Below, in pieces: positions 4,930 through 64,000 of a stretch of DNA of 64,000 nt. Positions within the stretch are counted from its first letter, which is position 1. The number at the start of each line of letters is the position of its first letter. The stretch covers positions 496,001 to 560,000 of the forward strand of contig NZ_JALKAO010000001.1 of NCBI RefSeq assembly GCF_023015985.1, given 5' to 3'. The notes below the pieces were generated by a model. The model was not told the origin of the DNA and did no database searches. It saw only the letters and a list, made by a program, of their open reading frames with translations. Source of the DNA: Marivita sp. S6314 (lineage in GTDB: Bacteria; Pseudomonadota; Alphaproteobacteria; Rhodobacterales; Rhodobacteraceae). A program made the translations under genes and the position numbers.

Positions 4930-5844
4930 ATGATCTTGAATTTGCCTTTCGCCGCTCTACGCGCATTCGAGGCCGTGTCACGGCATGGCAGTTTTTCCGA
5001 GGCCGCCAATGAACTGGGCGTCGGGCAAAGCGCTGTCAGCCAACACGTGAAGTCACTGGAGGAATGGCTTGGTCAGGATCTGATCACCCGCGGGTCCCGC
5101 CGATCTTTCCCTACGCGGGACGGCGCGCGACTGGCGCTCAGCATCTCGGAAGGTCTCGGGCAAATCTCGGAAATCTGCGAAGACATCCGGGACAAGCACC
5201 GCGACGACAAGACCATCGTGATCAGTTGCCACCCCGGTTTCGCGTTTATCTGGTTGTTTCCAAGGCTTCTGAGCTTTGATCAGGCCCACCCGGAATTCGC
5301 CATTTCGATCACCACGGACACCGGTTTGCGCGGTTTTGCGCGGTCCGAAGCCGATATTGGCATCCGCTACGGCACCGGCGACTTTCCGGGCTACGAGGTG
5401 CTTCCGCTCATGCGCGAAGACCTGTCTCCGGTCTGCGCCCCCGGTCTGGTCACAGGCCCGAAACCCCTTCTCAGCCTCAAGGATCTTGCCTACCACACCC
5501 AGATCCGCGACGAATTTGCGCCCACCACCACCGAACTGCCGACGTGGGAATACTGGGCGCGCGAAAGCGGCCAGACGCTTCCCAAACCGGCCCGGACGCG
5601 AAGTTTTGGACAAACGAACATGGTGGTGCAGGCCGCCATTCAAGGGGATGGTGTGGCGTTGGGCCGCAGCCCATTGGTGATGGACGCCTTGCGGGATGGA
5701 CGCCTGATCAAACCCTTTGCAGAAACGGTGCCATCCCCGTTGAAATATTGGCTGGTCTACCCGGAAGATCAAAGAAAAAGCCGGAAAATCGCGCTTTTCG
5801 TGAAGTGGATCACAGCAGAAGCAGCAACTCAGAAACTGCGGTGA
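4930..5844 (+). CDS. LysR-family transcriptional regulator (GcvA-like)
   Basis: From ATG 4930 the protein has 304 residues, normal for the family, and begins MILNLPFAALRAFEAV, matching the usual GcvA-type start. The helix-turn-helix covers about residues 16-45 (FSEAANELGVGQSAVSQHVK). The effector-binding domain follows from about residue 90 (IVISCHPGFAFIWLFPRL). A TTG at 4894 would add 12 residues but lies upstream of the palindrome. With the ATG start there is no ribosome site between operator and gene, so the message may be leaderless or the true start may differ. It probably controls the divergent M29-like gene and the downstream Rieske oxygenase, both associated with ATTAG-type palindromes. 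Confidence 0.9.
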   Translation: MILNLPFAALRAFEAVSRHGSFSEAANELGVGQSAVSQHVKSLEEWLGQDLITRGSRRSFPTRDGARLALSISEGLGQISEICEDIRDKHRDDKTIVISCHPGFAFIWLFPRLLSFDQAHPEFAISITTDTGLRGFARSEADIGIRYGTGDFPGYEVLPLMREDLSPVCAPGLVTGPKPLLSLKDLAYHTQIRDEFAPTTTELPTWEYWARESGQTLPKPARTRSFGQTNMVVQAAIQGDGVALGRSPLVMDALRDGRLIKPFAETVPSPLKYWLVYPEDQRKSRKIALFVKWITAEAATQKLR

Positions 5845-53240: not shown

Positions 53241-54554
53241 GTGCGCACGCGAATTGCGATTAAACTGCATGGCATACTCGAAAGATTTTTTCCGGAACGC
53301 CGCCTATTCCTGCGATCCGACACCGATACACGATTCATCCGACTGAAATCCGGCACGCAAGCGCTGGCCTTCGGGGGCGCATCGCTTGTGTTGGCATGGA
53401 GCATTATCGCAACCGCGATCCTGCTGATGGATTCAATCGGGTCGGGCAACTTCCGCGAACAGGCACGTCGGGATCTGGAAACCTATCAGCTGCGGCTGAA
53501 CATCCTGTCCGAAGAACGCGACGCCCGCGCCGCCGAAGCGGTGGCCGCACAGGAACGGTTCAACAGCGCGCTGGAACAGGTATCGGTCATGCAGTCGAAA
53601 CTGCTCGATGCCGAAACCCGCAGCGTCGAGATGGAAACCGGCCTTGAAGCGGTTCAGCTGAAACTGCGCGACGCCATCCGGGCGCGTGAAGAGGTCCGCA
53701 CCGAACTGGCCACATTGCGCACCGAGATCGAAGAAGGCGGCACGGCGCTGGCCTCTGCCGGGGCGGTGGATACCACGACGCTCGATTTCCTGTCCTCTGC
53801 GCTGGCCCGCACCGCCAAGGAACGCGATCAGGTTGTCGCCGATGCGCAGGACGCCTTGGTCCGCGCCGACGAGATGGCGACCGAGATCAAGCTGATGGCC
53901 GAAAAGAACGACACGATTTTCCGCCAGCTTGAAGAAGCCATGACCGTGTCGGTCAAACCGCTCGACAAGATGTTTTCCGCAGCGGGCATGAACCCCGACA
54001 CCATTCTCAACCAGGTGCGCCGCGGCTATTCCGGACAGGGTGGCCCGCTGATGCCGCTGAGCTTCTCGACCCGCGGCGAAGAGCCGTCGGAAGATGTGCT
54101 GCGCGCCAACCGCATCCTGAACCAGATGGACCGGTTGAACCTCTACCGCATCGCGGCTGAAAAAGCGCCGTTTGCGATGCCGCTGAAAGATTCGTTTCGC
54201 TTCACATCCGGGTTTGGATATCGCTGGGGTCGCCTGCATGCCGGAACCGATTTTGCCGCAGCCCATGGCACACCGATCTATGCCACGGCGGACGGTGTTG
54301 TGACCTTCGCGGGCTGGCAGTCAGGATATGGTAGGCTCGTCAAGATCCAGCATGAATTTGGCATCGAAACGCGCTACGCGCATAACTCGAAAATCTATGT
54401 GAAGAAGGGCCAACGGGTCTCGCGCGGGGATCGCATCTCTGCTATGGGGAACACTGGACGCTCAACCGGCACCCACTTGCACTACGAGGTACGTGTCGGC
54501 GGCAAGCCCGTTAACCCCATGATCTATATCAAGGCTGCAAACGATGTTTTCTAA
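53241..54554 (+). CDS. M23 family murein metallopeptidase with coiled-coil region
   Basis: A 437-residue envelope protein starting at GTG 53241 after AGGGGAAC. A signal-anchor helix (about 48-68) is followed by a long coiled coil (about 75-240), then a LytM/M23 domain (about 310-430). Zinc-site motifs are GRLHAGTDFA (H and D) and THLHYEVRVGG (HxH). The domain SGFGYRWGRLH is typical of active endopeptidases. It probably cuts peptidoglycan cross-links. Its last 11 bases overlap the bactofilin gene, an arrangement known from cell-shape modules. Confidence 0.93.
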   Translation: MRTRIAIKLHGILERFFPERRLFLRSDTDTRFIRLKSGTQALAFGGASLVLAWSIIATAILLMDSIGSGNFREQARRDLETYQLRLNILSEERDARAAEAVAAQERFNSALEQVSVMQSKLLDAETRSVEMETGLEAVQLKLRDAIRAREEVRTELATLRTEIEEGGTALASAGAVDTTTLDFLSSALARTAKERDQVVADAQDALVRADEMATEIKLMAEKNDTIFRQLEEAMTVSVKPLDKMFSAAGMNPDTILNQVRRGYSGQGGPLMPLSFSTRGEEPSEDVLRANRILNQMDRLNLYRIAAEKAPFAMPLKDSFRFTSGFGYRWGRLHAGTDFAAAHGTPIYATADGVVTFAGWQSGYGRLVKIQHEFGIETRYAHNSKIYVKKGQRVSRGDRISAMGNTGRSTGTHLHYEVRVGGKPVNPMIYIKAANDVF

Positions 54555-55047
54555 AAGCAAAATCAACGAGCCCGGTCCCAAGGCCGACGAGGGCAGCGCG
54601 CCGAAGCCGGCCATGCCAGAATCTTCGCGCCCCGCGGCGACCGAATTCAAGGCATCTGCCCCCAAGGCAAAGCCGGCCGCATCCACGCTGTCGAGCGACC
54701 TGCACATCACAGGGAACCTCAAGACAACGGGCGACATCAATGTTGAAGGCACAGTCGAGGGCGACATCCGCGCGCATCTCCTGACCGTCGGCGAAACCGC
54801 CACCGTCAAAGGTGAAGTGATTGCAGACGACGTTGTCGTGAATGGCCGCGTCGTGGGCCGAGTGCGTGGCTTGAAAGTCCGCCTGACCGCGACCGCGCGT
54901 GTCGAGGGTGACATCATCCACAAGACCATCGCGATCGAATCCGGTGCGCATTTCGAAGGCTCCGTGCAGCGCCAGGACGACCCGCTGAATGGCGGCAAGT
55001 CCAAGCCCGTTGCCGCCGCCGCGGCACCGGCTGCATCGAACGGCTAA
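54544..55047 (+). CDS. Bactofilin (polymer-forming cytoskeletal protein)
   Basis: A 167-residue protein with flexible Ala/Pro/Lys-rich ends and a central bactofilin beta-helix (about 48-140): LHITGNLKTTGDINVEGTVE, ETATVKGEVIADDVVVNG, RVEGDIIHKTIAIESGAHFE. Bactofilins polymerise without nucleotide at the inner membrane and position wall enzymes. The start lies inside the M23 gene, so the two are co-translated, which supports a bactofilin-guided hydrolase role as known for CcmA and Csd1 in Helicobacter. Confidence 0.95.
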   Translation: MFSKSKINEPGPKADEGSAPKPAMPESSRPAATEFKASAPKAKPAASTLSSDLHITGNLKTTGDINVEGTVEGDIRAHLLTVGETATVKGEVIADDVVVNGRVVGRVRGLKVRLTATARVEGDIIHKTIAIESGAHFEGSVQRQDDPLNGGKSKPVAAAAAPAASNG

Positions 55048-55072
55048 CCGATCCTGCACTGACTATTGAATG

Positions 55073-55096
55073 GGCCGCCTTCGGGTGGCCTTTCTT
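55073..55096 (+). terminator. Rho-independent terminator after bactofilin
   Basis: GGCCGCC-TTCG-GGTGGCC (7 bp, one G-U, UUCG loop) then TTTCTT. Confidence 0.88.
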
Positions 55097-55146
55097 ATTT
55101 CGGACACGCGGTGCTGGCCCTGCCAGCGCGCCGCATGCAGACGAAC

Positions 55147-55410
55147 CTATTGCCGCCGCCCCTTCCAGCCGCCGCGCCGTTTCGGCGTCTTTGCCGCCGA
55201 CAGACCTTCGGTCAGAACCTGCGTCATCGGATGATCCGCAACCGGGTGCCGCGCCAGCAGCGTGGTGATCAGCGCGGGGCTGTCCGCGTCCACCGGCACA
55301 GCCAGAGCCCAGTCCAGAAAGATCGACCGGCACTCTTCATAGGTGATGCCGTCGATCTTGTAGGATTCCGCGATCAGGCCCTTGGGGTCCGTTGCGTCGC
55401 CTTTTTTCAT
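55147..55410 (-). CDS. Small conserved hypothetical protein downstream of glnE
   Basis: An 87-residue soluble protein (MKKGDATDPKGLIAESYKID) with a basic C-terminus KTPKRRGGWKGRRQ. I recognise no domain. It starts 4 bp after the glnE stop, so it is translated with glnE. Composition (GITYEECRSIFLDWALAVP) suggests a small helical fold. It may be an accessory of nitrogen control, by position only. Confidence 0.75.
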   Translation of the reverse strand: MKKGDATDPKGLIAESYKIDGITYEECRSIFLDWALAVPVDADSPALITTLLARHPVADHPMTQVLTEGLSAAKTPKRRGGWKGRRQ

Positions 55411-55413
55411 GGC

Positions 55414-58206
55414 TCACTCCTCTTCTTCGACATCCGGCAAAACCGCATTGATGATGTCGGCCGCCCGCCGGGTGTCCCGGTCCAGCCTGTCCTGCAGATC
55501 GGCCACATCCGTGGTGCCGGTGATCCGGCACAGGAACTCTGCCCCGCTGCCATTGTTTTTGTCCGGTTCCATCGTGGTTTCCGAAATCAAACGCGCGCCG
55601 ATCTGAAGCGACCAGCACAGGCGATAGACGTCACACAGCGTGTCCGCATCGGCCTTGGTCAGGACACCGCACTCTGCCCCGGCCTGAAGCGCGTCCGGGA
55701 TCGTGCCAAGCGTGCGCCCCGCCAGCAAGGCTGCGGCCTGCGCCATCAGTTCAATGTCCTGCATCCGCCCCTGCCCCAGCTTGGCATCCCAGGGGTTGCC
55801 GGTGCCCTTGGCCGACGCAATGCGCTGCCGCATGATCGCAACCTCGCGCAGGATCGTGTCGACATCGCGCGACGCGGTCATAACCTCGGTCTGGACCGCC
55901 TGCACGTCCGTCGCCAAAGCCTTGGGCCCCGCCACCACCCGCGCGCGTGTCAGCGCCAGATGTTCCCAGACCCAGGCATCGCTGATCTGGTAGTCGCGAT
56001 AGGAGGTCAGGCTGGTCGCCACCGGTCCCTGATTGCCGGACGGGCGCAGCCGCATGTCGACCTCGTACAGACGCCCTTCGGCCATCGGCACCGTCATCGC
56101 GGTGATCAGCGCCTGCGTCAGCCGCGCGTAATACGGGCGCGATGCCAGCGGGCGGCGTCCGTCGGACATGTCCACATCCGCAGGATCGTAGATCACGATC
56201 AGGTCAAGGTCCGACCGCGCGTGCAGGCGACGCGACCCAAGGCTGCCCATGCCCAGAACCACCGCCCCCCGTCCGGGGGCCGGTCCATGTTTGCGCGCGA
56301 ATTCTTCGTGTACGACAGGCGACAGTGCGCCCAGCGTGGCATCGGCAAGGTCGGCGTATTGACGCCCCGCCTCTTCCGCGTCGATCAGGCCGCGCAGCAG
56401 GTGCACGCCAATTCGGAAGTGCCATTCCTTGCCCCAGCGCCGCCCGGTGTTCAGCTTGTTTTCGTAATCCGCTTCCTGCGACAGCACATCCTGCAACGTG
56501 GCCAGCAACGCCTCCTGCCCCGGCCAGTCCGAGAAAAAGTCACCGCCGATCACGGCATCAAACACCGACGCGTTGCGCGACAGGTAGCGGGCCAGATCAG
56601 GCGACACGCCGACGATGTCGATCAACAGGTCAATCAGATGCGGGTTGGCTTCGAACAGCGAAAACACCTGCACCCCGGCGGGCAGACCACTTAGGAACCC
56701 ATCGAAAGCGGCCAGCGCGTCCTGCGGATTGGACGTCTTGGCCAGTCGCCGCAGGATTTCGGGGCGCAGGCGTTGGAATATTCCGCTGCCCCGGGCCGAG
56801 CGCAGCGCCGGGTATGTGCGCCAGCGGCTGACCGTTTCCGAGGTGGCCAGATCTTCGGGGATGTCGCCCGGTGCCTCGGTCGATGTTTCACCCCCAAAGA
56901 ACCCTTCGGTCAGGGTGTGCACCTCTTCGAGCCGCGCTTGCAGGTCCGATTGCAGGCTGGCCCGGTCGGTGCCCATGAACGCGGCAAGCCGGTCGAACCC
57001 TTCGTCGGATTGCGGCAGGTCATGGGTTTGCGCGTCGCGGATCATCTGCACCCGGTGCTCGACCTCGCGGTGCGACCGGTAATGCTGGGTCAACGTGTCA
57101 GCAACGTCTTCAGGCACCCAGCCCTTTTGCGCCAGAACGGACAGACCCGGCACCGTGCCCCGAACGCGCAGGTCCGGGTCGCGGCCACCGGCGATGATCT
57201 GGCGGGTCTGGGTGAAGAACTCGATTTCCCGAATGCCGCCACGGCCCAGCTTCATATTGTGACTGGGAAGCGTGATCGGCCCCCCCAGACCTTTGTGTTC
57301 GCGGATGCGTTCGACCATGTCATGGGCATCCTGAATGGCGGCGAAATCCAGATGCTTGCGCCAGACAAACGGCTTGAGCGTCTTCAGAAACGCCTCCCCT
57401 GCCGCAAGATCGCCAGCGGCAGGACGGGCCTTGATATAGGCCGCACGTTCCCATGTCCGGCCGACGCTTTCATAATACCGCTCTGCCGTTTCCATCGCGA
57501 TGCAGACCGGCGTGACAGACGGGTCGGGACGCAGCCGCAGGTCGGTGCGAAAGACATAACCTTCGCCCGTCAGGTCGCTAAGCATCCCGCACATCTTGCG
57601 CGTCGCCCGCACAAAGCTGGCGCGCGCATCGTGGTAGTCGTCGGGTTCGAACCGGGTTTCGTCGAACAGGCAGATCAGATCGACGTCCGAGCTGTAGTTC
57701 AGTTCACCCGCGCCCATCTTGCCCATAGCAAGCGCCACCATGCCGCCCGCCTGTTCGGCGTCGTCGGGCGTCTGCCCCGGCAGCTTGCCGCGTTTGATCT
57801 CGGCCCCGACAGTAGCGCGCAGGGCCAGGTGCACGGCCAGATCGGCGAAATCCGACAGTGCCTGGGTGACGGTTTCTAGTGGCCACACCCCTGCCAGATC
57901 CGCCAGCCCCGTCATCAGCGCAACGCGGCGCTTGGCCCGCCGCAGTTCAGACGGCAGCACATCGGGCGCGGTATCGCGCAATGCGCTGTAGATATCCTGC
58001 AGCGCCTGTTCGGGCGCATCCAGCGCCGGGGCCAGCCACGCCTGTTCCTTTTCGATCAGGGATTTGAGATACGGGCTGCATCCGCCCGTCCCGGCAATCA
58101 GCTTTGCCACATCGCCCGTGGCCCAGGGTGTGGCGGACAAAGCGTCCTGCCCGTGATCGGGATCGAACGCGTGGGGAAGTCGGGTGATACGGCTGGCAAA
58201 ATTCAT
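55414..58206 (-). CDS. glnE: Bifunctional glutamine-synthetase adenylyltransferase/deadenylylase
   Basis: A 930-residue two-domain enzyme. The N-terminal nucleotidyltransferase half has GELNYSSDVDLICLFD (GxLxxxSDxDL, about 170-185) and the C-terminal half has GSLGSRRLHARSDLDLIVIY (about 660-680), the paired catalytic motifs of GlnE. RGGIREIEFFTQTRQI and MQDIELMAQAAALLAG are the linker motifs of each half. GlnE adenylylates and deadenylylates glutamine synthetase in response to PII. Length is normal for the family. Confidence 0.97.
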   Translation of the reverse strand: MNFASRITRLPHAFDPDHGQDALSATPWATGDVAKLIAGTGGCSPYLKSLIEKEQAWLAPALDAPEQALQDIYSALRDTAPDVLPSELRRAKRRVALMTGLADLAGVWPLETVTQALSDFADLAVHLALRATVGAEIKRGKLPGQTPDDAEQAGGMVALAMGKMGAGELNYSSDVDLICLFDETRFEPDDYHDARASFVRATRKMCGMLSDLTGEGYVFRTDLRLRPDPSVTPVCIAMETAERYYESVGRTWERAAYIKARPAAGDLAAGEAFLKTLKPFVWRKHLDFAAIQDAHDMVERIREHKGLGGPITLPSHNMKLGRGGIREIEFFTQTRQIIAGGRDPDLRVRGTVPGLSVLAQKGWVPEDVADTLTQHYRSHREVEHRVQMIRDAQTHDLPQSDEGFDRLAAFMGTDRASLQSDLQARLEEVHTLTEGFFGGETSTEAPGDIPEDLATSETVSRWRTYPALRSARGSGIFQRLRPEILRRLAKTSNPQDALAAFDGFLSGLPAGVQVFSLFEANPHLIDLLIDIVGVSPDLARYLSRNASVFDAVIGGDFFSDWPGQEALLATLQDVLSQEADYENKLNTGRRWGKEWHFRIGVHLLRGLIDAEEAGRQYADLADATLGALSPVVHEEFARKHGPAPGRGAVVLGMGSLGSRRLHARSDLDLIVIYDPADVDMSDGRRPLASRPYYARLTQALITAMTVPMAEGRLYEVDMRLRPSGNQGPVATSLTSYRDYQISDAWVWEHLALTRARVVAGPKALATDVQAVQTEVMTASRDVDTILREVAIMRQRIASAKGTGNPWDAKLGQGRMQDIELMAQAAALLAGRTLGTIPDALQAGAECGVLTKADADTLCDVYRLCWSLQIGARLISETTMEPDKNNGSGAEFLCRITGTTDVADLQDRLDRDTRRAADIINAVLPDVEEEE

Positions 58207-58675
58207 GGCCGCAGATGGCCATGTGTTCAGGGAAAGTGCAATGGGGCACGGTTTTTACGCGCCTGAGCATCGTCCTTGGGCAAAGACCCAAGGACCTGTT
58301 TGGTCTGAAGTCCCCGGGTCAAGCCCGAGGATCACGGTCTGAAGATAAAGAAGCGGCGCCGCCCTTTGGGTCTGACACGTCTCTTGTTGTTTCGGGTTGC
58401 CCCGTGACCTGTGCCCGTTCGGGCCTACGTGAAACCGGTTTCTCATGGTCGGCCTTTCGGCCTATGAGAGACGTGTCGTTCTGTGGTGTCGCGGCATGGG
58501 AGTGACCCTTCCCGCTCGATGCGCATCGTGGGCACGGGTATGCGGCAAAGAAGGTTAACGGTCAGACAATCATGCGTTCGGCGAGCCAAGCCGCTGGCGT
58601 GACGGTTGATCCAGCCTCCGCGACTATGCCAAGACTGTGCGCGACGCGCCCTGACGGGCCAGAAAGGACCACACC
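58207..58675. other. Gene-free 469-bp stretch rich in inverted repeats
   Basis: No convincing reading frame. It contains GTCCTTGGG-N6-CCCAAGGAC, a CCCCGGGTCAAGCCCGAGG unit, and an 11-bp inverted pair GACACGTCTCT (58374-58384) with AGAGACGTGTC (58467-58477) enclosing 82 nt. That interior has further stems such as GCCCG-TTC-GGGC and GGCC-TTTC-GGCC. It may be an untranslated structured RNA or a small repeated intergenic element. The remainder up to the VOC gene shows nothing recognisable. Confidence 0.6.
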
Positions 58676-59092
58676 ATGATTGCCTATGTCACGGTCGGCG
58701 CAGACGACATCGCGCGCGCCAAGCGGTTTTACACGGCGTTCCTGCCCGCCCTTGGCTACACGTTGGAAGAAGGCGCCGAAGGGCTGAGCTTCACGTTACC
58801 GGTTGCCCCGGGCAAAACCCCGGTCCATCCGGATTTCTACGTCAAACCGCCCTTTGACGGGCATCCGGCCTCAGCCGGGAACGGGGCTATGGTGGCGTTT
58901 GAAGCGCGCAGCCAGGCGCAGGTGCACGACCTGCACGCGGCGGCATTGGCCGCAGGTGGCACGGACGAAGGCCAGCCCGGTTTTCGCGCGTCATATGGTG
59001 CTCATTTCTATGTCAGCTACCTGCGTGACCCGCAGGGCAACAAGATCGCGCTGTTTTCCAGCAATCCTGATGAACCGGGACGGGATGGTTAG
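58676..59092 (+). CDS. VOC-superfamily (glyoxalase-like) protein
   Basis: A 138-residue single-domain VOC protein after AGAAAGGA: MIAYVTVGADDIARAKRFYTA at the start, LGYTLEEGAEGLSF, and YVSYLRDPQGNKIALFSS at the end, with the metal-site glutamate largely replaced. This is the usual glyoxalase/bleomycin-resistance-like fold of small dioxygenase or lyase relatives. The substrate is unknown. Confidence 0.9.
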   Translation: MIAYVTVGADDIARAKRFYTAFLPALGYTLEEGAEGLSFTLPVAPGKTPVHPDFYVKPPFDGHPASAGNGAMVAFEARSQAQVHDLHAAALAAGGTDEGQPGFRASYGAHFYVSYLRDPQGNKIALFSSNPDEPGRDG

Positions 59093-59142: not shown

Positions 59143-60351
59143 CTAGACCCGGCGCAGCGCCAGCACCGCGTTCAGGCCGCCGAAGGCAAAGGCGTTCGAC
59201 AGGGCCACCTCGACATGCGCGTCGCGCGCCACGTTGGGGACCACGTCCAGCGCGCATTCGGGGTCGGGCTCGTCATATCCGATGGTGGGGGCGATGACAC
59301 CGTCGCGGACGGCCATGATGCAGGCCAGCAATTCGATGGCTCCGGTGCCGCCGATGCAGTGGCCGTGCATGGATTTCGTCGAGGACATCATGACCTGATC
59401 CGCATGCGCGCCGAACACATCCGCGACAGCGGCGCATTCGGTTTTATCGTTGGCGGCGGTTCCGGTGCCGTGGGCGTTGATGTAGCCCACGTCCTCGGGG
59501 TTGAGTTTCGCATCCGCCAAGGCCCCGGCAATGGCGCGTGCGGCGCCGTTTTTCGACGGCATCACGATGTCGGACGCGTCCGAGGTCATGGCAAAGCCCA
59601 CCACTTCGGCCAGGATATCCGCACCACGGGCTGTGGCGTGATCATAGTCTTCAAAGACAAACACACCTGCCCCTTCGCCCTGCACCATGCCGTTGCGATT
59701 GGCGCTGAACGGGCGGCAGGCGTCTTTGGACATGACGCGCAGCCCTTCCCATGCCTTCACCCCGCCAAAGCACAACATGGATTCCGATCCGCCGGTGATC
59801 ATCACCGGGGCCATCCCGCCATGCACCATCTGGAACGCCTGGGACATGGCGTGGTTCGACGACGCGCAGGCGGTGGAGACGGTGAAGGACGGGCCCTTGA
59901 GGTTGAACTCCATCGACACGTGGCTGGCGGCGGCGTTGTTCATCAGTTTAGGCACCACGAACGGGTGCACCCGGTTCTTGCCATCCTCGTAAACCGACCG
60001 GTAATTTTCGTCGAGCGTCGTCATCCCGCCCCCCGAATTGCCAAGGATGACACCGGAGCGCGCTGCCAGATCACCCGAGAATTCCAGCCCCGACTGCGCC
60101 AGCGCTTCGCGCGCGGCGATCAGGGTGAACTGGGTGAAACGGTCATAGAGCGACAGTTGCTGGCGGTTGAAATAGGTCTCGCCATGAAAGTCATGCACCT
60201 GCGCGCCGATCTGGATGGCCAGCCGGTCGACATCCTGAAACGACAGCGCCCCGATCCCGCACCGGCCTTCGCGCATCGCGGCAAGTGTGTCGGGCACATT
60301 CAACCCCAGCGCATTGATCGTGCCCGCCCCGGTGATGACCACCCGTTTCAT
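59143..60351 (-). CDS. Beta-ketoacyl-ACP synthase (FabF/NodE-like)
   Basis: A 402-residue condensing enzyme. The nucleophile is C162 (VSTACASS). The two histidines lie in NAHGTGTAAND (H294) and the SMHGHCIGGTGAIE segment (about 328-341), and the conserved lysine is K326. This is a complete FabF-type active site. It lies 4 bp after the acyl carrier protein gene and in an operon with the LpxD-like acyltransferase, so it probably extends an acyl chain on that dedicated carrier rather than serving general fatty acid synthesis. NodF/NodE pairs show the same ACP and synthase arrangement. Confidence 0.93.
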   Translation of the reverse strand: MKRVVITGAGTINALGLNVPDTLAAMREGRCGIGALSFQDVDRLAIQIGAQVHDFHGETYFNRQQLSLYDRFTQFTLIAAREALAQSGLEFSGDLAARSGVILGNSGGGMTTLDENYRSVYEDGKNRVHPFVVPKLMNNAAASHVSMEFNLKGPSFTVSTACASSNHAMSQAFQMVHGGMAPVMITGGSESMLCFGGVKAWEGLRVMSKDACRPFSANRNGMVQGEGAGVFVFEDYDHATARGADILAEVVGFAMTSDASDIVMPSKNGAARAIAGALADAKLNPEDVGYINAHGTGTAANDKTECAAVADVFGAHADQVMMSSTKSMHGHCIGGTGAIELLACIMAVRDGVIAPTIGYDEPDPECALDVVPNVARDAHVEVALSNAFAFGGLNAVLALRRV

Positions 60352-60355
60352 GGCA

Positions 60356-60616
60356 TCAGCCCTTTTGCGCAGCGATCAGCCGTTCGATCCCCGCGATCAC
60401 GCTGGAAACTGAGGTGATGTCAAAGTCGCTTTTTTCCGGTTCATTGGCGTTGAACGGCACGTCGATGTCGAATTCTTCTTCCAGCGCAAAGATGCATTCG
60501 ACCAGCCCCATGCTGTCGATGCCAAGGTCGTCCATCGTATCCGTTTCGGCAACATCGGACGGTTCGATCATGGCCTGTTCTGCGATGATGCGGATGACCC
60601 GCTCTTGCACGCTCAT
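60356..60616 (-). CDS. Dedicated acyl carrier protein
   Basis: ATG 60616 (MSVQERVIRIIAEQ) gives 86 residues. The phosphopantetheine serine is S35 in DDLGIDSMGLVECIF. The helix after it is acidic (ALEEEFDIDVPF), and the C-terminal part (about 55-86) is longer than in housekeeping ACP, similar to AcpXL and NodF types. It lies between the LpxD-like and ketoacyl synthase genes, so it likely carries the specific acyl chain that those enzymes build and transfer. Confidence 0.9.
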   Translation of the reverse strand: MSVQERVIRIIAEQAMIEPSDVAETDTMDDLGIDSMGLVECIFALEEEFDIDVPFNANEPEKSDFDITSVSSVIAGIERLIAAQKG

Positions 60617-60655
60617 GTCCCACACCCTGAATTTCGGTTCCAGTTGCCGCGTGAT

Positions 60656-61747
60656 TTAGTCACTCGCGTCTGTCTTTGAAACTGATTTCTTGAGGGACGC
60701 CACGTCGGCGATCAGGCGCGGCAGGCGGCGCAACTGTTTGTAAAGCTCAAGCTGGGTGTCCATTTTCATCGCCGGATAGCCCAGCATCACGCGCCCCGCG
60801 GGCACGTTGGACAGCACTTTGGTGGCCCCGCCGGTGATGACATTGTCGCCGATAAACAGGTTGTCGCTGACCCCGGTTTGTCCGCCCAGCACCACGTTGT
60901 TGCCAATGCGGCTGGACCCGGCGATCCCCACTTGCGCGCAGATCAGGCAGTCATTGCCGATCACCACGTTGTGGCCCACCTGCGCGAGGTTATCAAACTT
61001 GCAGCCATTGCCGATGCGCGTGTCGCGCACCGTTCCGCGATCCACGCAGGCGTTCGCGCCCAGTTCCACATCGTCCCCGATGGTCACGCCGCCAAGCGAA
61101 TGGATACGCGCATAGTTTTGTGCCTTGGCATCGCCCTGATCGCCCAGCGTTTCGCGCACGGCCTCTGCGGCTGATGGCTCGGGCGTGACAAAGGAAAACC
61201 CGTCGGCCCCTACAGTGGCGTTGAAATGCGCGATGAAGTTGGACCCGATCGTGACCTCATGCCCGATGCGCACGCCGGGATGGAGCAACGCGTCGCGCCC
61301 GATCCGCGTGCCATGTCCGACATAGACATGTGCGCCAAGGGTTGCGCCCTGCCCGATGACGGCCCCGGCCCCGATGACGCAGAACGGGCCGATGCTGACA
61401 TCCGCTTCGATCACGGCAGACGGGTCGACACTGGCAGAGGGGTGAATGCCCGCCGGGTAGCGCGGGCCGGCATCCATCATCGCGGACAGACCCGACATGG
61501 CGTAGCGCGGGCGCGGCGCCAGAAGCGCGGCGGACAGGTTCAGCGCCTGCCAGTCTGCCCCGTCCCACAGCATCGCGGCGCGCGCGTCCCCGTGGGACAA
61601 TTGCCCTGCAAATTCGGGCTTCATCGCCAGCGCAAGATCGGTCGCGCCCGCATCGGCCGGTTCTGACACACCGTGAACGGTCAGCGACACGTCGCCTTCC
61701 GCACGGATGCCAAGTGCGCGGGCGATCTCTGCGATGGTGTAGGACAT
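60656..61747 (-). CDS. LpxD-like UDP-3-O-acylglucosamine N-acyltransferase
   Basis: A 363-residue protein with the LpxD layout. An N-terminal uridine-binding domain (about 1-95, VHGVSEPADAGATDLALAMK) is followed by a left-handed beta-helix of hexapeptide repeats (about 100-315, for example IGPFCVIGAGAVIGQGATLG), with the catalytic histidine in NLAQVGHNVVIGN. The C-terminus is helical. LpxD normally N-acylates UDP-glucosamine in lipid A synthesis. The gene is not next to lpxA or fabZ as usual, but beside its own ACP and ketoacyl synthase, suggesting a second, specialised LpxD. Confidence 0.92.
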   Translation of the reverse strand: MSYTIAEIARALGIRAEGDVSLTVHGVSEPADAGATDLALAMKPEFAGQLSHGDARAAMLWDGADWQALNLSAALLAPRPRYAMSGLSAMMDAGPRYPAGIHPSASVDPSAVIEADVSIGPFCVIGAGAVIGQGATLGAHVYVGHGTRIGRDALLHPGVRIGHEVTIGSNFIAHFNATVGADGFSFVTPEPSAAEAVRETLGDQGDAKAQNYARIHSLGGVTIGDDVELGANACVDRGTVRDTRIGNGCKFDNLAQVGHNVVIGNDCLICAQVGIAGSSRIGNNVVLGGQTGVSDNLFIGDNVITGGATKVLSNVPAGRVMLGYPAMKMDTQLELYKQLRRLPRLIADVASLKKSVSKTDASD

Positions 61748-61776
61748 GACGGTCTCCGGCCTGACTGGCCGAAGGT

Positions 61777-63390
61777 TTAGCTTTGAATACCACCGATCTC
61801 CACCCCTGCTGCGCTCAGGGCGTTCCAGATGCGTGCATCGCGGTTATAGATATCGCGGCGGTACTGAACCTGGCCTTTGGCGGTCGTGAAGGCGGTGCGG
61901 TAGATCAGATGGACCGGCACATGCTGATCCAGGTTGACCCGCGTTTCCTGACCGGACCGCAACCGCGACCGAAAGAACCCTTCGGGATCGTCGGTCTGCA
62001 TCGCCAACAACGCATGGGCAAAATCATGCGGATCGTTCAGGCGTACGCAGCCGTGGCTGAAGGTGCGGACCTCGCGCGAGAACAGGGATTTTGCAGGCGT
62101 ATCATGCAGATAGATGTTGTACTTGTTTGGGAACATGAATTTCACCGTCCCCAGCGCATTGCGCGGGCCGGGCTTTTGACGCATCGCAAACGGGAAGGTC
62201 CGGTTGGTGTATCCGGCAAAGCTGCGGTTGCGGCTGACGACACGGCCCCGGCTGTCGGTAATCTCAAGATGCCCCACCGCGCCGGGATTGGCGCGCAGTT
62301 TGGGCAGGTATTCGTTCACGATGATGGATCGCGGCACGTACCAGCTTGGGTTGATGACCATGTGGTCCATTTCGTCGGAAAATTCCGGTGTCTGGCGATC
62401 AATATCCTGATGGCCGATCACCGACCGGGTCTCAAAGGTCAGTTTGCCGTGATCAAAGATGCGCGCTTTGAAATCCGTGAGGTTCACAAGGATGTGGCGA
62501 TCGCCAAGCCCGTCCGGCCGGTTGATCCAGCGTTCCCGCTCCATCGCGACGATCACGGATTTGAGCCGCTCCTGCGGCGTCTTGTTCAGTTCCGCGATTG
62601 TCCCGGCACCGGCAACGCCGTCTGCCGTCAGGCCGTGCATCTCTTGAAAGCTGCGGACGGCTTCGGTGATGGCCGTGTTGTAACGCGCGGTCACCGTGCG
62701 ATCGAGATACCCCATGGCAATCAGCCGGTCGCGCAACGCGATCACGCCCGCGCCGGTGTTGCCCGGCTCAAGCTTGCGGGAGGGCACGGTCGGGCCCCAT
62801 CCGCCATGGGCAATCGTGTGTTCCAGCCGCATCTTGGACTTCATCAGCCGCGCGTATTCATGCGATTGCGGTGCAAGCGAGGACAGGAATGCGCGTGGCG
62901 TGTCGGACATCAACCCGTCAAGATAGTAGGAAGCGTCGCGGCGCGGGATCTCGCGGACGATTTCGCCGACCACACGTTTGGGCGTGTCGATAACCCCGGT
63001 CTGCAAGTCGCGAGCAAAGCTCAGGTAAAGTTCGGTCAGCGACACTTCGAGCGCGCCGCGATCATATCCGGTGCCAACAGAGGCCATCTGCGTCAGCAGC
63101 GCCTGCGTGTTGTAGCGTTCGGCCGGAAGGCCGTGATGCGCGGCAGTGCTCAGCGCGTCCAGAAGAGCGGTGCGGCGTTCGAAATCGGCATCTGTGCCGC
63201 CGGTCCAGATCGGGGCGAATCCCCTCTCACGGTAAAACGCGGCGATTTGATCGTCCCGGGACACGTTCTCTGCAACAGCCTGCTGGAACGCCGTAACCTG
63301 CACGGCATTTGCATCATTCGGCGCAAAATACGAGGCCGCAACAATGGCCATGACCGCTGTACTTCGCAGAACCGTCCGGTGAAACATCAA
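61777..63390 (-). CDS. L,D-transpeptidase (YcbB/LdtD type)
   Basis: A 537-residue secreted protein: signal peptide (about 1-29), a helical scaffold domain (30-200) with the PIWTGG loop, a peptidoglycan-binding domain (about 205-275, GVIALRDRLIAMGYLDR), then the YkuD catalytic domain (about 300-500). The active-site motif is SHGCVRLNDP with cysteine C448. The family cross-links peptidoglycan by 3-3 bonds or attaches proteins to the wall. It is the first gene of an operon with the lpxD-like, acp and ketoacyl synthase genes, and is divergent from the DUF882 gene. Confidence 0.95.
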   Translation of the reverse strand: MMFHRTVLRSTAVMAIVAASYFAPNDANAVQVTAFQQAVAENVSRDDQIAAFYRERGFAPIWTGGTDADFERRTALLDALSTAAHHGLPAERYNTQALLTQMASVGTGYDRGALEVSLTELYLSFARDLQTGVIDTPKRVVGEIVREIPRRDASYYLDGLMSDTPRAFLSSLAPQSHEYARLMKSKMRLEHTIAHGGWGPTVPSRKLEPGNTGAGVIALRDRLIAMGYLDRTVTARYNTAITEAVRSFQEMHGLTADGVAGAGTIAELNKTPQERLKSVIVAMERERWINRPDGLGDRHILVNLTDFKARIFDHGKLTFETRSVIGHQDIDRQTPEFSDEMDHMVINPSWYVPRSIIVNEYLPKLRANPGAVGHLEITDSRGRVVSRNRSFAGYTNRTFPFAMRQKPGPRNALGTVKFMFPNKYNIYLHDTPAKSLFSREVRTFSHGCVRLNDPHDFAHALLAMQTDDPEGFFRSRLRSGQETRVNLDQHVPVHLIYRTAFTTAKGQVQYRRDIYNRDARIWNALSAAGVEIGGIQS

Positions 63391-63732
63391 CCACTCTCCC
63401 TAAATCGTACAATTACAACGCCTTACACGCGTCTTGGTTTCATATCGTCTTGATGGATGAACGCAGTGTCCATTCACAAAAGGGTTTTTCAATCATTTTG
63501 GTGCCAATTTGCGGCAATGCTGCACCGGCAAATCAGGTGTAGCGTAACTTTAACACACCTGAGGCAATTAAGCAGGTTTTTGCCGAAAAACCTTGAAACA
63601 AAATATTTACCCCAAGTTTAGGTTTTTTTGGGATTCGTGTTGTGTCATAGTCACGCCACGATCAGGCATACGGCAGGTTCGCGGAACGGCGCGGACAGAC
63701 GACCAAGTGAACACGGGACAGGCACTTAATCC
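63391..63732. other. Divergent promoter region between the transpeptidase and DUF882 genes (342 bp)
   Basis: No gene. It contains a perfect hairpin AGGTTTTT-GCCG-AAAAACCT (63574-63593) and an A/T-rich stretch with CCCC and GGG blocks around TTTTTTT (about 63610-63632). Promoters for both directions must lie here; I cannot pick a convincing -35/-10 pair. Confidence 0.5.
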
Positions 63733-64000
63733 ATGACTGACATAGCATCTGGCGGCATCACGCGTCGCGGACTTCTCGCAGCATTTGCAGCGACGGCAGT
63801 CACCGCGGCACCCAGCTACTCAAACGCAGCAGGCTTTCTGCGCGGCGGGGGCGATATCCGACGGATCCGCATGTATTCTGGCCGCACCGGTGAACGGATC
63901 GACATGATCTACTGGATCGAAGGCAAGTATATCAAAGACGCCGTCCGCGAAGTGAACCACTTCATGCGGGACTGGCGGACCAATGACGTGAAATCGGTTG
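63733..64000 (+). CDS. DUF882 family (YcbK-like) secreted protein, 3' end cut by the window
   Basis: ATG 63733 opens a frame that runs to the edge (89 codons seen). It begins MTDIASGGITRRGLLAAFAA, a Tat-type signal with twin arginines and an SNAAG cleavage region. The mature part reads MYSGRTGERIDMIYWIEGKY and REVNHFMRDWRTND, the start of DUF882 (M15-like, YcbK in E. coli). YcbK is next to the L,D-transpeptidase gene ycbB in E. coli, as it is here. It is probably a Tat-exported peptidoglycan enzyme. Confidence 0.9.
   Translation, partial: MTDIASGGITRRGLLAAFAATAVTAAPSYSNAAGFLRGGGDIRRIRMYSGRTGERIDMIYWIEGKYIKDAVREVNHFMRDWRTNDVKSV

Follow-up and report, generated by a model that had tools for sequence, protein, structure and literature searches.

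In the Raetz pathway of lipid A synthesis, the amino-sugar N-acyltransferase is LpxD, and its gene in E. coli lies in the order bamA-skp-lpxD-fabZ-lpxA-lpxB (E. coli gene record). Rhizobia acylate nod factors with the carrier NodF and the synthase NodE, acting with the acyltransferase NodA. The rhizobial AcpXL cluster supplies very long chains to lipid A and holds a dehydratase, an alcohol dehydrogenase and LpxXL alongside its special acyl carrier protein (ACP) and beta-ketoacyl-ACP synthase (KS). Here we describe a cluster at the end of a 64,000-nucleotide stretch of Marivita sp. S6314 (the window; contig NZ_JALKAO010000001.1, positions 496,001 to 560,000), where an lpxD gene is followed by an ACP and a KS gene of its own. 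We consider it probable that this lpxD-acp-KS trio works as a module that N-acylates lipid A from a private supply of acyl chains.

The trio lies on the minus strand and consists of lpxD (60656-61747, 363 aa), acp (60356-60625, 89 aa) and the KS gene (59143-60351, 402 aa), the last gene of the cluster. An L,D-transpeptidase gene (61777-63390) is the first of the run, so the order of transcription is L,D-transpeptidase, lpxD, acp, KS. Because the gaps are just 29, 30 and 4 bases, respectively, the arrangement is operon-like. Together with a divergent MepK/DUF882 gene, these are the five genes that the original prediction had placed here, and coordinates and family profiles confirm all of them. 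No sigma-70-like promoter was found, compared with 1.6 expected from shuffles.

The same prediction took the window gene for a second lpxD, additional to a canonical one. In the genome (39 contigs, 99.99% completeness), the PF04613 profile hits one place, and the window LpxD searched against the genome finds itself and two weak loci, on contigs C34 and C11. The C34 locus is LpxA, above its family cut-off, and for that on C11 the frame length and the weakness of the match suggest GlmU. As neither PF04613 nor the protein searches gave another lpxD, a second, canonical gene was rejected. The lipid A locus on C34 reads fabZ, lpxA, lpxI, lpxB, with lpxI below its curated cut-off. There an open reading frame assigned to skp by position ends at 5382 and fabZ starts at 5445, and since just 62 bases lie between them the canonical lpxD slot is empty. 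Judged from its sequence, the window protein is a second type of LpxD rather than a second copy; we call it LpxD2. The genome also encodes two stand-alone synthases, 40% and 33% identical to the KS, which group with FabF and FabB in the tree, a KS match inside a 2169-aa frame, and a separate AcpP-like protein on C34. The prediction had set against itself the case of a sole lpxD with a sole FabF-type partner. The lpxD is indeed alone; the synthase is not, with FabF-type and FabB-type enzymes encoded elsewhere.

LpxD2 resembles canonical LpxD in its profile, fold and catalytic residues. It scores 278.1 bits with TIGR01853, above the cut-off of 242.5. The first 11 matches of its predicted structure are LpxD structures (Z 21.1-22.0, 324-334 residues aligned, root-mean-square deviation 12.9-14.6). 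The model has a mean predicted local distance difference test score of 75.8, with residues 182-216, which include an insertion, under 50, and it points to the LpxD fold, a left-handed beta-helix with the LpxD N-terminal domain. We compared residues across 47 aligned rows, 33 from the LpxD2 clade and 14 canonical, in E. coli numbering. In the accessible text of a study of the E. coli enzyme, His239 is catalytic and Gly257 forms the oxyanion site (PMC6286764). These residues and Asn240, next to the histidine, correspond to window His259, Gly277 and Asn260 and are invariant in all 47 rows. As the only lpxD product found in the genome, LpxD2 is predicted to be the N-acyltransferase acting on UDP-3-O-acyl-glucosamine.

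Unlike the E. coli gene, lpxD2 stands outside the bamA-skp-lpxD-fabZ-lpxA-lpxB context, and its product falls in a separate clade. A tree of 46 rows splits into an LpxD2 side of 33 (support 100/99) and a canonical alpha- and gammaproteobacterial side of 13 (100/99). The LpxD2 clade carries about 20 extra residues after E. coli position 187 (window approximately 190-210). The insertion sits just past Phe183, a residue that contacts bound acyl chains in E. coli according to the same accessible text (PMC6286764). Serine replaces Gln197 in 33/33 LpxD2 rows, where all 14 canonical rows have Gln, and it replaces Gly184 in 32 of the 33. E. coli His276, reported there to contact pyrophosphate and to lower kcat 32-fold when lost (PMC6286764), corresponds to window residue 296; it is Asn in 16/18 family rows and His in the remaining rows of both clades. 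In a loosely aligned part, an aromatic residue at 313 and Arg or Lys at 315 each occur in 13/14 canonical rows and are mostly absent from LpxD2, with 315 being Glu or Asp in all 18 family rows. Both positions lie near carrier-contact positions, and their change would fit a changed carrier.

The synthase is of the NodE type. In a tree of 49 rows it falls in a clade of 42 (100/100) that includes two synthases in the NodE position, opposite seven FabF and FabB rows, and it is 50-51% identical to the former and 38-39% to FabF. In the records, those two synthases and their carriers adjoin nodA, nodB and nodC, but the annotation reads only ketoacyl synthase family protein for NodE and acyl carrier protein for NodF; we use the latter names because of the position beside nodABC. 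The window protein has ketoacyl synthase domains, and its Cys162, His294, Lys326 and His331 align with Cys164, His304, Lys336 and His341 of E. coli FabF, the catalytic Cys, His, Lys and His being present in all 60 KS rows examined. It stays below the FabF equivalog TIGR03150 (452.4 against 493.75) and exceeds the cut-off of NF005589, a broader subfamily model for synthase II (435.4 against 387). The FabF/NodE-type label given earlier stands for its NodE half, as the protein groups with neither FabF nor FabB. In the 60-row tree, synthases of trio loci were not supported as a single clade within the NodE type: 10 changes are needed, and well supported branches make at least 4 of them unavoidable. 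The 49-row tree requires 2, of which just 1 is imposed by branches with good support.

The carrier is less readily typed. It has a PP-binding domain (PF00550, 41.2 bits, cut-off 20.8), with the phosphopantetheine serine in DLGIDSMGLVE, and lies under the cut-offs of all 13 NCBIfam models listed. It had been described as an AcpXL/NodF-type protein, and neither part of that description is supported. It scores 37.6 against a cut-off of 83 with NF005079, which we take to be the AcpXL-type model. In BLAST comparisons it does not look NodF-like, the match to a NodF (24.6% over 57 aa, E 1e-5) being weaker than that to AcpP of E. coli (40.5%, E 5e-13). The locus compares with each rhizobial system only in part. 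As with NodF/NodE, a carrier and a NodE-type synthase are adjacent and lie beside an enzyme that N-acylates an amino sugar, but that enzyme is LpxD rather than NodA, the ACP is not close to NodF and the product is presumably lipid A. The genes nodABC are not beside the window pair, whose neighbours are lpxD, ldtD and a glyoxalase-like gene. As with the AcpXL cluster, a special ACP and KS would serve lipid A, but no dehydratase, alcohol dehydrogenase or LpxXL is found among the typed window genes.

To assess conservation within the family, 196 genomes were sampled evenly from the order; all belong to one family, which we call Rhodobacteraceae in the wide sense because the KS of Paracoccus ferrooxidans falls within the family clade. 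An LpxD match at E 1e-10 occurs in 195/196 genomes and is above the cut-off in 191, and the KS is found at E 1e-100 in all 196. In the 118 genomes listed for both, the KS is always downstream of lpxD on the same strand, separated by an ACP-sized gap of 325-465 nucleotides, which argues that the gene order is not due to chance. Among the best-scoring 30 lpxD loci, ACP and KS are present in all 30, as are ACP and lpxD at 30 KS loci of the family. The KS likewise adjoins lpxD in P. versutus, P. pantotrophus and Pseudorhodobacter turbinis. The expectation of exactly one lpxD everywhere in the family did not fully hold. One genome (G122) has two LpxD loci reaching the cut-off, and a single-contig genome (G141) has the KS and no LpxD match at E 1e-15. 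The latter is a possible case of lipid A loss.

Outside the family, we surveyed 385 alphaproteobacterial genomes, 5 of them listed from the family and 380 others. The KS (E 1e-100) is found in 27, namely the 5 and 22 of the 380, at 44-56% identity. A contiguous trio in the same order and strand is present at 13 of the 22 fetched non-family KS loci, from ten families (L185, L187, L188, L189, L190, L191, L192, L193, L195, L197, L201, L202 and L204, the acp of L197 being recognised by gene call). The trio of G515 is probably whole as well, since two contig ends fall at its lpxD. In G427 the KS lies apart from an adjoining lpxD and acp. Searching with the window LpxD separates 29 of the 385 genomes at E 4.9e-65 or better from the next match at 2.8e-50, a clear gap, and these are the 5 family genomes and 24 others. 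Both LpxD2 and KS occur in 15 of the 380 non-family genomes, where about 1.4 would be expected by chance for 24 and 22 carriers. Fisher's test gives p = 7e-16 when genomes are counted and 2e-11 when families are, with both genes in 11 families out of a total set at 172 after the highest family code seen, although neither count is free of shared ancestry. The NodE-type grouping and the trio in the family and ten other families support the earlier claim that an ACP and a KS are dedicated to an amino-sugar N-acyltransferase.

Several distributions weigh against this module. Seven of the 22 class genomes with the KS have no LpxD of the LpxD2 kind. Nine LpxD2 genomes lack the KS at the cut-off. In G217 it is split between two contigs (52% and 63%), and in the other eight the KS matches reach only 32-40%, so LpxD2 and KS need not occur together. 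Of 398 genomes drawn across the phylum, 51 passed the KS cut-off, 24 of them outside the family. At the 22 of these loci that were newly fetched, no LpxD2-kind gene lies beside the KS, and one of them (G598) is canonical FabF by tree; of the remaining two, G324 has the trio and G760 is outside the fetched set. The KS type is therefore wider than the module. Indeed, NodE-type ACP/KS pairs occur in many genomes of other bacteria without lpxD, and for this reason the pair looks like a movable supply unit of which lpxD is one client. These pairs would also allow that the three genes are mere neighbours, lpxD having arrived once and stayed linked by descent with acp and KS serving another lipid, and the presence of LdtD and MepK beside the trio shows that other envelope genes can become linked at this site. 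We regard this as improbable, as ten other families show the trio again with its gene order unchanged, the LpxD2 type co-occurs with the KS, and LpxD2 is a distinct clade rather than a moved canonical lpxD.

Some of the pairs without lpxD have other neighbours, noted by eye. Those at L264 (2620-6274), L260 and L267, from families f217 and f197, lie beside an aminotransferase-like gene, with a phosphatase-like gene as well at L264 and L260. At L256 and L258 (family f174) no nod genes were seen near the pair, which at L256 adjoins urease-like genes.

The context of lpxD2 outside the family bears on its target. Three genomes (G296, G499 and G576) carry both LpxD kinds. In each, the canonical lpxD adjoins an LpxA-like match, with the run fabZ-lpxA-lpxI-lpxB read in G576, and lpxB lies directly upstream of lpxD2-acp-KS (L191, L189 and L187, respectively). 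The trio-linked lpxB of G576 is above its family cut-off and is the second lpxB of that genome. In G217 (L281), lpxD2 ends a fabZ-lpxA-lpxI-lpxB run, and no lpxD match was found in the canonical slot before fabZ. Because lpxB precedes the trio in the former genomes and lpxD2 follows the lipid A run in the latter, lipid A, rather than another glycolipid, is likely the target of LpxD2. As a separate observation, the lpxB with the trio in G576, G499 and G296 may make a second lipid A-like glycolipid.

Under the module reading, condensation of an acyl chain and malonyl would take place on the dedicated ACP, catalysed by the NodE-type synthase. LpxD2 would accept the chain from that carrier and transfer it to UDP-3-O-acyl-glucosamine, at the 2-amino group, as part of the ordinary route to lipid A. 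We think such a private hand-over reasonably likely. The oxidation state of the chain is a more tentative matter. No reductase or dehydratase is among the cluster genes, and since it has a synthase and a carrier without either, the cluster alone would make a 3-oxo chain. On the dedicated carrier the beta-keto group may in part escape reduction, so that the amide-linked chain would be 3-oxo-14:0 accompanied by some 3-OH-14:0, as reported for Rhodobacter. On the simplest account, LpxD2 would remove the 3-oxo chain from the private carrier either ahead of its reduction or while competing with it, which would also explain mixtures of 3-oxo and 3-OH chains. We put the 3-oxo product forward as a suggestion short of even confidence. 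The same caution applies to its extension, that the module underlies amide-linked 3-oxo-acyl lipid A throughout the Rhodobacter-Paracoccus-roseobacter family and in scattered other alphaproteobacteria. In that case the NodE-type synthase would make 3-oxo-14:0 on a private carrier that is a poor substrate for FabG, and the dedicated LpxD clade would transfer the chain.

The lipid A of Paracoccus versutus (formerly Thiobacillus versutus) holds 3-oxo-14:0. Rhodobacter lipid A is a natural endotoxin antagonist and the model for eritoran and carries a rare 3-oxo chain, which the accessible part of one report places in both R. sphaeroides and R. capsulatus (PMC5923411). That part also gives amide-linked 3-oxo-14:0 in the gammaproteobacteria Spiribacter salinus and Ectothiorhodospira halophila, and states that the 3-oxo acid escaped detection when total fatty acids were analysed in the usual way (PMC5923411). 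The module may explain the rare 3-oxo chains of Rhodobacter. We found no paper naming genes for the 3-oxo chain in the open-access literature, most subscription journals being outside the search, nor any report there on 3-oxo lipid A chemistry of roseobacters or Paracoccus. The module gives two small candidate genes, which makes the origin of the chain directly testable. If the reading is true, it would be a case of lipid A N-acylation with a private carrier and a synthase of the kind that also serves the acylation of nod factors.

Several results count against a 3-oxo product. The altered beta-hydroxyl pocket expected for a 3-oxo substrate was not seen. Asp232, which binds the beta-hydroxyl, is kept in 32/33 LpxD2 rows, and position 236 is Q, H or M in these as in canonical rows. 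The kept Asp does not favour a 3-oxo substrate. According to a review, both amide-linked chains of R. sphaeroides are 3-OH-14:0 (PMC7956469). For Marivita sp. S6314 itself we found no lipid A chemistry. The gammaproteobacterial lineage offered a further comparison, and it too did not support the 3-oxo reading. With photoactive yellow protein as a marker, its sequence presumably belonging to H. halophila, which we take to be the Ectothiorhodospira halophila of the 3-oxo-14:0 report, we located two Halorhodospira-like metagenome-assembled genomes (G196 and G197; marker 95% and 90% identical). They are recorded as Ectothiorhodospiraceae assemblies of 1.8 and 2.5 Mb with completeness unstated. Neither carries the module, their KS matches reaching no higher than 41% and 39% though the lineage is reported with amide 3-oxo-14:0. 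Their second KS has neither an ACP nor an LpxD match next to it, and G196 has a canonical LpxD.

The main rival is that ACP and KS set chain length and not oxidation state. LpxA would draw on the general pool for a short 3-hydroxy chain, the private pair would lengthen chains for LpxD, FabG would reduce them, and LpxD2 would transfer an ordinary 3-hydroxy chain. The kept beta-hydroxyl contacts agree with this. So does the position of Met290, the chain-length ruler of E. coli LpxD in the accessible text on that enzyme (PMC6286764), which is Lys or Val in 15/18 family rows versus Gly in 11/14 canonical rows. R. sphaeroides lipid A, moreover, has C10 ester and C14 amide chains, as far as the accessible review text goes (PMC7956469). 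However, length alone needs no second carrier, as E. coli LpxD uses AcpP. The KS is also of the NodE type, and nodEF is needed for alpha,beta-unsaturated, i.e. incompletely reduced, chains according to the accessible part of PMC9048898, a text that interchanges the roles of the two proteins. We hold a role in chain length alone to be rather unlikely.

The cluster includes two genes of the cell wall. The L,D-transpeptidase (minus strand) has Scaffold, PG_binding_1 and YkuD domains and an SHGCVR motif; YkuD is above its own cut-off, and the LdtD equivalog NF007891 is not reached (219.1 against 425). MepK/DUF882 starts at 63733 on the plus strand and continues past the window end at 64000. Its complete 189-aa protein, read beyond the window in the genome (L007), passes NF053624 (220.6 bits against 185). 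In E. coli, too, an L,D-transpeptidase gene lies beside mepK. A YcbK-like gene had been described as divergent, as beside E. coli ycbB. It is divergent here; E. coli K-12 also has ldtD next to mepK, but there the two genes point the same way.

The original prediction saw the whole operon as coordinating lipid A N-acylation with 3-3 peptidoglycan cross-linking. In its favour, LdtD is directly upstream in 28 of the 30 best-scoring family lpxD loci, within the fetched flank. MepK lies beyond it, divergent, in 5/5 longer, hand-picked family loci, and P. ferrooxidans has the order DUF882, peptidoglycan-binding protein, lpxD, acp, KS. In contrast, no LdtD or MepK match of at least 35 aa was found in the stretches fetched round the 22 non-family KS loci, some of them cut by contig ends, and E. 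coli pairs ldtD and mepK without lpxD. As far as seen, LdtD and MepK are neighbours only within the family and not part of the acyl machine, and we hold the coordination to be very doubtful. Conservation of the five-gene order, which the original prediction proposed as a check, stands in the family for the trio, mostly for LdtD, and for MepK in the loci checked, but neither LdtD nor MepK was seen beyond it. The observation behind the prediction is sound. It is less interesting than first noted, in that the gene is not a second copy and the link to the cell wall is unproven, and more interesting as a distinct LpxD clade with a family-wide private supply.

Two minor features remain. A 556-aa open frame at 61783-63453 on the plus strand, antisense to the L,D-transpeptidase, resembles a chance frame of GC-rich DNA. 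The adjoining genes at 54544-59092, for a bactofilin, glnE and the glyoxalase-like protein, are ordinary.

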